From: Oceanospirillales bacterium
GTDB lineage: Bacteria; Pseudomonadota; Gammaproteobacteria; Pseudomonadales; Balneatricaceae
Assembly: GCA_018223185.1 (NCBI GenBank)
Contig: JAAEYW010000011.1
Coordinates: forward strand, 43,510 to 107,509
DNA length: 64,000 nucleotides
Direction of reading: 5' to 3'
The notes beneath the pieces were generated by a model, which was not told the origin of the DNA, did not search any database, and worked only from the letters and a program-made list of their open reading frames with translations. Every line of letters begins with the position of its first letter. The first letter of the stretch is position 1. Shown here piece by piece: positions 27,022-31,538 of this stretch. The position numbers and the translations under genes were made by a program.

Positions 27022-28152
27022 TTAGAGGTCGAAACCATCGAAGTCGTCTTCACCCATTTCATTATCAATTGCTCCTACCAGATACGAGCTGATCTCTGCT
27101 TCCTGTGGGGCAACCTGTACGTTGTCACTGACCAGCCACGCATTCATCCATGGTAGCGGATTCTGTTTCGCCGGAAAAATCTCTTCCAGATTCAGCGCCT
27201 TCATCCGCACATTCGTAATATATTCCACATAGTCAGACAGGATGCGGGCATTAAGACCGATCATTGAGCCGTCCTTAAACAAATACTCAGCCCACTCTTT
27301 TTCCTGCTCAGCAGCTTCGCGGAAAATCTCATAAACCTGAGGTTCACACTCTTTTGCAATCTGTTTGAACTCAGGATCATCAGAACCGGAAGCCAGCACG
27401 TTGAGCATAAACTGAGTACCGGTGAGGTGCAGCGCCTCATCCCGGGCGATCAGCTTAATAATTTTGGCATTGCCCTCCATGATTGCACGTTCAGCAAATG
27501 CAAATGAGCAGGCAAAACTCACATAGAATCGAATCGCTTCCAGCACATTAACCGATACCAGCGTCAGATAGAGCTTGGTTTTCAGACTATGCATACTGAC
27601 ATCGTATGTTTCGCCACCAATCGTGTGAACGCCTGGCCCCTGAATCATATAGATATTTGTTAACTCGATGAGTTCATCATAAAGCCGGGTCACACTGCGG
27701 GCCCGCTTAACGATCTCTTCATTGGTGACGATTGTATCAAACACCTCTGACGGCTCAGTCAGAATATTGCGGATAATATGGGTGTAAGAACGGCTGTGAA
27801 TTGTCTCACTGAAAGACCAGGTTTCCAGCCAGGTTTCCAGCTCTGGCAGTGATACTATCGGCAGAAACGCGATATTGGGCGAACGTCCCTGCACCGAATC
27901 CAGCAGGGTCTGATACTTCAGATTACTGAGGAAAATGTGCTTTTCATGCTCCGGCATCACCATAAAATCTTTACGGTCAGTGGACAGATCAACCTCTTCC
28001 GGGCGCCAGAAAAATGATAGCTGCTTTTCAATCAGCTTCTCAAGAATCGGGTATTTCTGCTTGTCATAACGGGCGACGTTGACGTTATGGCCGAAAAACA
28101 TCGGCTCTTTGGTAGCATCGTTGAAAGTCGGATCAAACGTTGAATATAGCAT
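27022..28152 (-). CDS. nrdB: Class Ia ribonucleoside-diphosphate reductase beta subunit
   Basis: [32 protein letters not shown]. Confidence 0.97.
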
Positions 28153-28199
28153 GTTGCATCAATACTCTTGCCCTGATTACAGGGAGGTCAAAACTGATT

Positions 28200-28220
28200 G
28201 CCGGTGGGGTTGCCACCGGC
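28200..28220. other. Intercistronic hairpin between nrdA and nrdB
   Basis: gccggtgg ggttg ccaccggc perfect 8-bp stem, no U-tract. Confidence 0.7.
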
Positions 28221-28254
28221 CTGAAATCCGTTACACAGTCTGCGCTGAAAATTC

Positions 28255-30519
28255 TCAGAGCTTGCAGGCACCGCTGTCGCAACCACCCATATCTTCATGC
28301 TGATCAGTCGCACCATCACGGGTGTTATGGTAGTAGAGGGTTTTGACACCATACTTGTAGGCAGTCAGCAGGTCTTTAAGGAGCTGTTTCATCGGCACCT
28401 TATCACCTGGGAACTTCGAGGGATCATAATTAGTATTAGCCGAAATAGACTGATCAACAAACTTCTGCATGATACCCACCAGCTGCAGGTAACCTTCATT
28501 GGTTGGAATCTGCCATAACAGCTCGTAATCCTCTTTCAGCTCAGCGTATTCCGGCACCACCTGTTTCATGACACCATCTTTACTCGCCTTAACGCTGACA
28601 TAACCCCGTGGAGGCTCAATACCATTGGTCGAGTTAGTAATCTGAGAAGAGGTTTCGCATGGCATCAGCGCTGTCAGGGTGCTGTTGCGCAGACCAAATT
28701 CGCGTATATCTTCACGCAGTGTTTCCCAGAAATAGTGCAAAGGTTCATCACAGAACTCATCCACTTCACGCTTATAAGTATCGGTCGGCAGAATTCCTTT
28801 GGCGTAATTAGTTTCCTTGAACAACTTGCAAGGCCCCAGCTCTTTCGCCAGCTGATTAGATGCTTTAAGCAAGTAGTACTGAATCGCTTCAAAGGTTTTG
28901 TGAACCAGGCCATTAGCGGAACCGTCGGAGTAACGGACGCCGTTTTTGGCCAGATAGTAGGCAAAGTTAGTCACACCGACTCCAAGAGTTCGGCGGTTCA
29001 TAGACGCAGTACGCGCCGCTTCAATCGGGTAATCCTGATAATCCAGCAGACTATCCAGTGCGCGAACGATCAGATCTGACAGGTTTTCAAGCTCATCCAG
29101 GTTCTCCAGAGCCCCCAGATTAAAGGCAGACAGAGTACAAAGAGCGATCTCACCTTCAGGATCATTAATATCATTAAGAGGCTTGGTTGGCAGTGCAATC
29201 TCAAGACAGAGGTTAGACTGTTTAACCGGTGCCACCTTAGGATCAAACGGGCTATGGGTATTACAGTGATCGACATTCTGAATATAGATACGTCCGGTTG
29301 ACGCACGCTCAGATGCCAGAATACCAAACAGTTCAACGGCTTTAATCGTTTTCTTACGAATCGTTTCATCCTGTTCATACTGAACATAGAGACGCTCAAA
29401 CTCTTCCTGATCGGCAAAGAAGGCATCATACAGTCCCGGCACCTCATGGGGACTGAACAGAGTAATATTGCCCCCCTTGATCAGTCGGGTATACATCAGT
29501 TTGTTCAGCTGCACACCGTAATCCAGATGGCGCACCCGGTTTTCTTCCACACCCCGGTTGTTCTTCAGCACCAGCAGTGATTCAACCTCAAGGTGCCAGA
29601 GTGGATAAAACAGCGTTGCTGCACCACCACGAACACCGCCCTGAGAGCAGGATTTTACTGCAGTCTGGAAATATTTGTAGAACGGGATACAACCGGTGTG
29701 AAAAGCTTCTCCGCCCCGGATAGGACTGCCCAGAGCCCGGATACGGCCGGCATTGATACCGATACCTGCCCGCTGGCTGACATACTTCACGATCGCACTG
29801 GCAGTCGCATTGATAGAATCCAGCGAGTCACCGGATTCGATCAGTACACAGGAGCTGAACTGTCGGGTCGGGGTGCGCACACCGGCCATAATAGGTGTTG
29901 GCAACGACAGTTTGAACAGTGAGCAGGCATCATAAAAACGCTTCACATATTCAAGTCGGGTCTCTTTCGGGTAGTTGGCAAACAGACAGGCTGCAACCAG
30001 GATATACAGAATCTGAGGGCTCTCATAAATCTCATGAGTCACCCGGTTCTGTACCAGATACTTGCCTTCTAACTGCTTTACAGCCACATAGCTGAAATTC
30101 ATATCCCGAGCGTGATCGATATAGTCATTCAGTTGATTAAACTCTGCTTCAGAGTAATCTTCTATCAGATGTTTATCATAACGACCGGCATCAACCATCT
30201 TAGCCACATGGGTCAGAAGATGAGGCGGTTCAAAGCTGTCAAAAGCACGCTTACGCAGATGGAAGATCGCCAGACGGGCAGCCAGATACTGGTAGTCCGG
30301 TGCATCCTCAGAGATAAGGTCAGCAGCAGATTTGATCAGTGTTTCATGAATATCGGCTGTTTTAATGCCATCGTAAAACTGAATATGGGCTTTCAGTTCC
30401 ACCTGTGAGACTGAGACATTCTGAAGGCCATGGGCGGCCCAGATAACGACTCGGTGAATTTTTTCAAGGTCCAGCTTTTCCTGACGACCATCCCGTTTCG
30501 TTACCAATATGTCCTGCAT
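28255..30519 (-). CDS. nrdA: Class Ia ribonucleoside-diphosphate reductase alpha subunit
   Basis: N-terminal ATP-cone; FSSCVLIESGDSLDSI; NLCLEIALPT; C-terminal CDSGACKL. Confidence 0.97.
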   Translation of the reverse strand: MQDILVTKRDGRQEKLDLEKIHRVVIWAAHGLQNVSVSQVELKAHIQFYDGIKTADIHETLIKSAADLISEDAPDYQYLAARLAIFHLRKRAFDSFEPPHLLTHVAKMVDAGRYDKHLIEDYSEAEFNQLNDYIDHARDMNFSYVAVKQLEGKYLVQNRVTHEIYESPQILYILVAACLFANYPKETRLEYVKRFYDACSLFKLSLPTPIMAGVRTPTRQFSSCVLIESGDSLDSINATASAIVKYVSQRAGIGINAGRIRALGSPIRGGEAFHTGCIPFYKYFQTAVKSCSQGGVRGGAATLFYPLWHLEVESLLVLKNNRGVEENRVRHLDYGVQLNKLMYTRLIKGGNITLFSPHEVPGLYDAFFADQEEFERLYVQYEQDETIRKKTIKAVELFGILASERASTGRIYIQNVDHCNTHSPFDPKVAPVKQSNLCLEIALPTKPLNDINDPEGEIALCTLSAFNLGALENLDELENLSDLIVRALDSLLDYQDYPIEAARTASMNRRTLGVGVTNFAYYLAKNGVRYSDGSANGLVHKTFEAIQYYLLKASNQLAKELGPCKLFKETNYAKGILPTDTYKREVDEFCDEPLHYFWETLREDIREFGLRNSTLTALMPCETSSQITNSTNGIEPPRGYVSVKASKDGVMKQVVPEYAELKEDYELLWQIPTNEGYLQLVGIMQKFVDQSISANTNYDPSKFPGDKVPMKQLLKDLLTAYKYGVKTLYYHNTRDGATDQHEDMGGCDSGACKL

Positions 30520-30717: not shown

Positions 30718-30961
30718 ATAAACAACTTAATTACAATACTTGATTTTGCCCTTTTATGAGTGTAGTCAGACAGTAAATACTGGCCAGATGCCCGTGCCAT
30801 CAGCGCTGCAGAATATTACGCCAAAATAAGAAAAATTTTAATTAAAAATGAATTCGCAATAAATTTTGATAATGGTCAAAAAGACCTCTCATCCTATAAA
30901 AAAAGATTCATCTTTCCGCTTTACAGTGGCGTAACAAATCAATAGTATACGCCCTCCTTGT

Positions 30962-31045
30962 GGTGGGGTTCCCGAGTGGCCAAAGGGATCAGACTGTAAA
31001 TCTGACGCGCGAGCTTCGGTGGTTCGAATCCACCCCCCACCACCA
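30962..31045 (+). tRNA. tRNA-Tyr(GTA)
   Basis: ggtggggttcccgagtggccaaagggatcagactGTAaatctgacgcgcgagcttcggtggttcgaatccaccccccaccacca; class II variable arm, encoded CCA. Confidence 0.97.
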
Positions 31046-31206
31046 TCGAATTTGATACAAAAAAAGCCCCGCCTATCCCGGGGCTTTTTTGTGTCTGCAA
31101 TTCAGATCAGGGGTGGGCGAGAACCGCCGATAGGGTTCGAGCCGGAGGCCACGAAGTGGCCGAAGACAACGTTGCAACGCTTTTCTGCAACGGCCCGAAG
31201 GGGCAT
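31027..31206 (+). repeat. 180-bp tandem repeat, unit 1 (tRNA-Tyr 3' end + terminator + downstream hairpins)
   Basis: Starts at aatccaccccccaccacca (last 19 nt of tRNA-Tyr). Confidence 0.92.
31059..31091 (+). terminator. Terminator following tRNA-Tyr
   Basis: aaaaaaagccccgcctatcccggggcttttttg. Confidence 0.85.
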
Positions 31207-31332
31207 AATCCACCCCACACCACCATCGAATTTGATACAAAAAAAGCCCCTCCTATCCCGGGGCTTTTTTGTGCCTGCAATTCAGATCAGGGGTGGGTGA
31301 GAACCGCCGATAGGGTTCGAGCCGGAGGCCAC
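31207..31332 (+). repeat. 180-bp tandem repeat, partial unit 2 (about 126 bp)
   Basis: aatccaccccacaccaccatcgaattt...gccggaggccac; 4 mismatches to unit 1 by eye. Confidence 0.92.
31239..31271 (+). terminator. Duplicated terminator in repeat unit 2
   Basis: aaaaaaagcccctcctatcccggggcttttttg. Confidence 0.8.
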
Positions 31333-31538
31333 ACTGCGGCTGCGCAACTTCGTGGCTGGTTGCTCATCGCTCGATGAAAGAAAAACAACCTACTGACAAG
31401 CCTCCCTGCAACGTGCCACCTGTGCCAGAAATCCGTCTTAAATCAATTACCCAGAGAATATTTCACTCTCCCTCTGTACCTTGCCGTTATCCTGTGCCAA
31501 TGTGTGGAAATATCTAATAGCACCTGGAGAACAACAAT

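Follow-up and report, generated by a model that had tools for sequence, protein, structure and literature searches.

The closest described counterpart of the locus analyzed here is rtT of E. coli K-12 (rttR; Rfam family RtT, RF00391), which is present at the tyrT locus as four copies, one in the tyrT-tyrV spacer and the other three downstream of tyrV. As cited in PMC4986893, Bosl and Kersten found that rtT RNA is released from the tyrT transcript and linked it to amino-acid limitation, and the same paper cites a reported effect of rtT on the stringent response in E. coli. Two further RNAs of the family, Arrc20 and Arrc21 of Actinobacillus pleuropneumoniae, lie near tRNA-Asn and tRNA-Lys, and their expression was detected by RT-PCR (PMC4986893). 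A tandem GA motif and extra covariation have been reported for RtT from the Rfam alignment using CaCoFold (PMC7657543, PMC8250186). The occurrence of RtT near non-Tyr tRNAs (PMC4986893) and its tandem GA motif (PMC7657543) are already known.

We analyzed a 64-kb stretch of DNA (64,000 nucleotides, here referred to as the window) from an Oceanospirillales bacterium, in which tRNA-Tyr(GTA) at 30962 to 31045 is the only tRNA. A direct repeat of 126 nt with 97% identity and a spacing of 180 (copies at 31027 to 31152 and 31207 to 31332) starts at exactly the last 19 nt of this tRNA, AATCCACCCCCCACCACCA in the first copy and AATCCACCCCACACCACCA in the second, with a single mismatch at 31217. The same hairpin-plus-T-run terminator follows each tail copy (31060 to 31090 and 31240 to 31270). 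A preliminary, sequence-only reading of this DNA had described a tRNA tail copied again 180 bp downstream with one mismatch and a similar terminator, and the repeat bears out that description. Its length and identity, together with the same arrangement at the orthologous site of sister species, exclude chance. Rather than an array without a fixed end, the window holds one complete and one incomplete unit. The latter is diverged beyond ~31332, is not followed by a third tail copy, and gives only a weak covariance-model match (31287 to 31418, E 0.03). The features of the locus are as follows (model R2 is described below).

30920 to 30948, + strand: predicted sigma-70-like promoter (TTTACA-17-TAGTAT) upstream of tRNA-Tyr, from a consensus scan only
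30962 to 31045, + strand: tRNA-Tyr (anticodon GTA), the host gene (ARAGORN; Rfam RF00005)
31027 to 31045, + strand: last 19 nt of tRNA-Tyr, the copied part (T-loop end, T-stem 3' strand, acceptor 3' strand, CCA), where the direct repeat begins
31060 to 31090, + strand: intrinsic-terminator-like hairpin with T run between tRNA-Tyr and the element (inverted repeat in the sequence)
31107 to 31225, + strand: complete RtT element (RF00391) with arm, five helices and tail copy (RF00391, 44.1 bits; independent model R2, 50.2 bits, E 1.8e-11)
31110 to 31117, + strand: 5' arm GGGGTGGG, which complements both the tail copy, with which it forms helix P1, and the 3' tail of tRNA-Tyr itself (minimum-energy fold; column covariation)
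31119 to 31140, + strand: helix P2, conserved GAGAACC...GGTTCGA with tandem G-A pairs (alignment; GA, UC and UU exchange opposite GA)
31147 to 31161, + strand: helix P3, GGCCAC-GAA-GTGGCC (minimum-energy fold; covariation)
31170 to 31192, + strand: helix P4, CGTTGCA...TGCAACG (minimum-energy fold; covariation)
31194 to 31202, + strand: helix P5, CCC-GAA-GGG, the most conserved hairpin (alignment; covariation analysis)
31207 to 31225, + strand: tail copy, identical to the tRNA-Tyr 3' end at 18 of 19 positions and including CCA (direct repeat)
31240 to 31270, + strand: second copy of the terminator-like hairpin (sequence and repeat search)
31287 to 31418, + strand: second, decayed RtT unit with arm and P2 intact, 3' half diverged and no tail copy (R2, 14.9 bits, E 0.028; repeat end at 31332)

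Next to tRNA-Tyr, the - strand encodes the two subunits (376 and 754 aa) of a class I ribonucleotide reductase (27022 to 30519), and the large subunit starts at the same place in many of the sister species checked.

Judged from sequence and structure models, the repeat behind tRNA-Tyr is a homologue of E. coli rtT and belongs to the same family. The Rfam RtT model matched positions 31096 to 31225 end to end (model positions 1 to 130 of 130, 44.1 bits, E 2.7e-7). This score is 0.9 under the Rfam gathering cutoff of 45 bits, and four other elements of the same genome scored 52 to 55 bits with RF00391; the window locus is a new, sub-threshold RtT member. A separate model, R2, was built from 66 elements behind non-Tyr RNAs, all from other genomes. 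Its only strong match in the 64-kb window was 31107 to 31225 (50.2 bits, E 1.8e-11), and it also found the four E. coli rtT copies at 86 to 90 bits. The window core alone, stripped of arm and tail, also aligned to E. coli rtT: relative to shuffled cores, z was 7.8 for the copy in the tyrT-tyrV spacer and 3.6 to 4.2 for the other three copies. A blastn search of the element against E. coli genomes gave no match, so the relation is invisible at the plain sequence level and a structure model is needed to see it. The label of an rtT-like locus given earlier is upheld, while the accompanying proposal, that downstream sequence is not shared and the structure may be recurrent rather than homologous, is contradicted by RF00391, the core alignment and R2 alike.

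The window element and E. coli rtT share their position behind tRNA-Tyr, a repeat of ~180 bp, a 19-nt copy of the tRNA tail that includes CCA, a 5' arm able to pair with this copy, the GAGAA...GGTTCGA and CCCGAAGGG motifs, and a full-length model match. They differ in that the window has a terminator between tRNA and element, only one complete unit and an Rfam score below the cutoff, whereas the E. coli locus has four copies, including the one between tyrT and tyrV. Independent slippage, an alternative raised in the sequence-only reading, would make the repeat a chance duplication of tRNA tail and flank unrelated to rtT. This would fit a direct repeat that begins exactly at the tail and takes in flank and terminator, as well as the varying unit number in sister species; however, both E. 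coli rtT and the elements at other tRNAs have homologous cores, which leaves this alternative with almost no probability. Chance or plain slippage as the origin of the element is ruled out by the homology to rtT. Slippage or recombination explains the second unit and the unit number, but not the element.

An alignment of 84 elements provided the anatomy of the family, which consists of a structured core of ~90 nt between host-matched ends. From 5' to 3', an arm of ~10 nt is followed by P2, a variable hairpin (P3), P4, P5, in most elements P6, the sequence TAATCC and the tail. Folded by itself, the window element has P1 to P5 in its minimum-energy structure. P5 is an almost invariant CCCGAAGGG hairpin across the aligned elements, and P6, which carries a second tandem G-A motif, is absent from the window element. 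As in the CaCoFold work on RtT (PMC7657543, PMC8250186), a tandem GA is seen here, in P2, where it is replaced by U-A with C-G or U-G in ~40% of elements; the correspondence between P1 and the host gene is not taken up in the available portions of those papers. In the tail, P1 takes up the 3' strand of the T-stem plus three to four bases of the acceptor strand, leaving the remaining acceptor strand and CCA free. The fold comprises 5 to 6 helices with strong covariation: 87.5% of cells were paired, compared to 71.0% after shuffling, and covariation was 0.368, compared to 0.131 for shuffled and 0.07 to 0.09 for slid alignments, with changes on both sides in 9 of 11 pairs of P1. Leaving out Tyr elements and this genome changed these values little (86.0% paired, covariation 0.397). 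The excess of G-U over A-C pairs was small (87 versus 59) and too weak to count as proof of an RNA strand. Modeled in this way, a transcript would form a multi-helix junction ending in a free ...CCA.

Sequence comparison further shows that the 3' end of an element is typically a copy of the tail of its own host, and that its 5' arm is complementary to this tail. A tRNA lay within 700 nt upstream (<=700 nt) of 146 of the 184 RtT matches in the order and class. The element's tail showed no mismatch to the last 19 nt of its own tRNA in 74 of 134 distinct pairs and at most one (<=1) in 96 of 134; this comparison is unbiased because the search models do not see the upstream gene. Hosts in these pairs were Ser (all four isoacceptors), Gln, Tyr, Arg, Glu, Lys, Val and Pro tRNAs; Asp tRNA hosts were found in other classes of the phylum, and further hosts in the genus are tRNA-Leu (one decayed case) and tRNA-Phe. 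The arm-tail duplex with the own host had a mean energy of -14.7 kcal/mol, compared to -10.4 +/- 0.2 kcal/mol for permuted hosts, a statistic that is partly ascertained since RtT models reward P1 pairing and whose permutations ignore relatedness. At a tRNA-Val locus of the same genome (L007), both arms are perfectly complementary to the real tRNA-Val tail, while the tail copies have decayed beyond the T-stem part. Elsewhere in this genome, an RtT element with a Val-like tail lies behind a degenerate Val-like tRNA remnant (L011, G000:C1:206066-206186) and seems to have outlived its host.

The RtT matches without an upstream tRNA led to two non-tRNA hosts, tmRNA and 5S rRNA. Copies of the tmRNA (ssrA) tail are partly decayed in the genus of the window and exact in other families (L069, L070); other RtT loci behind ssrA are L038, L266, L274, L295 and L326. 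At one 5S rRNA locus (L320), the element ends in GTAGGTCATCGCCA like the 5S gene and the arm reads ATGACC; a second (L303) is similar, with one wobble pair and a tail copy that includes the following flank. These two 5S-linked loci, L303 and L320, are in genomes G918 and G925. With both tail and arm matching 5S rRNA, these RtT-like elements mean that the host need not be a tRNA.

The 3' ends of tRNA genes are classical integration sites. A tail copy could accordingly be an attR remnant left by a phage or genomic island, and the window shares with the tRNA attachment sites of integrative elements a second tRNA 3' end behind the gene, about as long as an att core. Between the copies, however, which are only 180 bp apart, there is no integrase and just short spurious open reading frames. 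What is inserted is a 90-nt structured core of constant anatomy, found behind tRNAs for at least eleven amino acids, tmRNA and 5S rRNA, and it carries a 5' arm complementary to the tail that att sites do not need. Thus the window differs from such attachment sites in its lack of an integrase, its conserved structured core and its complementary arm, and the RtT family also has non-tRNA hosts. The element had no match among 50,697 phage records. We regard an integration scar as very improbable; with neither an integrase nor a phage match, a prophage or island attachment scar was rejected.

RtT elements are widespread. RF00391 with strict filters detected them in 64 of 369 genomes of the class, and model R1 in 76 of 398 genomes of the phylum, other classes included. 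Among relatives, R1 detected them in 30 of 39, and in the genus in 17 of 18 genomes with up to 20 elements each. In the window's own genome they number about a dozen, their hosts being Lys (2), Tyr, Val (2), Ser, Arg, Gln, Phe and a decayed Val-like tRNA. Sister species carry none, one, two, or three or more units at the orthologous tRNA-Tyr site. Absence from all relatives, which the sequence-only reading would have taken as counting against its view, does not hold: the repeat is present in many, though absent at tRNA-Tyr in three sister species (G911 to G913), in which the same 80-aa reading frame follows. At L212 (G920), directly after tRNA-Tyr, a transposase-like IS reading frame interrupts the first terminator ahead of a three-unit array.

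The 97 cores of the genus group by host RNA and not by genome (12 changes versus 61 when shuffled), with one clade for Tyr (83/99) and one for Gln (98/82), and a few cores have moved between hosts, such as Ser elements within the Val clade. Per-genome homogenization of cores was ruled out as the main pattern, since cores group by host tRNA despite these few moves. Elsewhere in the class, the cores of a Val and a Gln element of one genome (G207) are 90% identical, each with its own host's arm and tail. Where tRNA tails have changed, the tail copies mirror the change and the arms lag (Lys AATCCAGTACGG in G915 and G922; Val AATCTGAC in several species). From these sequences we infer that the tail probably tracks the host by gene conversion and the arm by slower compensation. 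Cores mostly descend with the host gene and sometimes shift host with both ends exchanged. The tRNA-Phe loci are distinct in that the core is inverted relative to the host at all six (L172, L168, L288, L297, L305 and L332): the model matches the strand opposite the tRNA, the tail copy is on the tRNA strand, and the order of arm and tail is the usual one. In the window's genome (L172, L168; G000:C16:60836-61269), tandem units at tRNA-Phe are ~170 bp apart.

The main rival explanation is selfish DNA: a short palindromic element without coding capacity would move or amplify at stable-RNA 3' ends, with hairpins that serve its copying (through template switching or a single-stranded intermediate) and no selected RNA function. 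Up to 20 copies per genome, variation in presence and copy number at a single site, occasional host moves with exchange of both ends, upstream terminators in 40% of first units and the inverted core at tRNA-Phe are all consistent with it, and this inversion is hard to reconcile with one single RNA function. On the other hand, core inheritance throughout the genus follows the host instead of showing free spread, and some units lie within tRNA operons. Compensatory changes in every variable helix, and a tandem G-A flanked by covarying pairs, argue for selection on a folded strand, and an unsystematic search turned up no transposase candidate. We consider a purely selfish palindrome possible but unlikely.

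For the window itself, we have good, though not full, confidence in a different reading: its repeat is an RtT element, with one complete and one decayed unit, that would be co-transcribed with its host, have its tail copy processed like a pre-tRNA and follow its host at its ends. Co-transcription would take place within tRNA operons or, as in the window, through terminator read-through. The tail copy would present tRNA-processing enzymes with a second pre-tRNA-like 3' end, giving a stable CCA-ended RNA like that of E. coli rtT; this RNA would be handled and trimmed as a pre-tRNA 3' end is, with the tail copy in P1 and the CCA free. Recombination between tail copies would add and remove units, while gene conversion would keep the tail copy to its host, and slower compensatory changes would bring the arm into line. 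Occasionally, a core may move to another stable-RNA gene and take on the ends of that gene.

No terminator separates host and element in 69 of 115 first units, and some units are inside tRNA operons, e.g., Thr-Tyr-Gly-Thr; at those loci, the element must be in the tRNA transcript. The other 46 of 115 do have a terminator there, compared to 1 in shuffled spacers. In the window, the terminator ahead of the element means that transcription would need read-through. With such terminators in the genus as well as in the 46 of 115 elsewhere, transcription may be low, which counts against the RNA reading, and the three sister species without an element at tRNA-Tyr indicate that it is dispensable there.

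For the family as a whole, we lean toward a general host-matched class, in which a folded core has both ends rewritten to the 3' tail of a stable RNA and its complement by copying that can move cores and swap both ends, with tRNAs for at least eleven amino acids, tmRNA and 5S rRNA as hosts. Like Arrc20 and Arrc21 (PMC4986893), many of these members are near non-Tyr tRNAs; those two, however, are located upstream of tRNA genes, and copied tails are not discussed in the available portion of that paper. In the searchable full-text literature, we found no description of a match of both ends to the host, or of tmRNA and 5S rRNA as hosts.

These data place rtT, known mainly as an oddity of E. coli, in a distant genus. 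The tail-of-host rule turns the role of rtT RNA, and of the tRNA sequence it contains, into testable questions; this role probably involves tRNA-processing enzymes or the tail of the tRNA. The many natural pairs of host and element, from 5S rRNA to tmRNA, amount to a natural experiment on the way in which a short element comes to match its neighbor at its ends.
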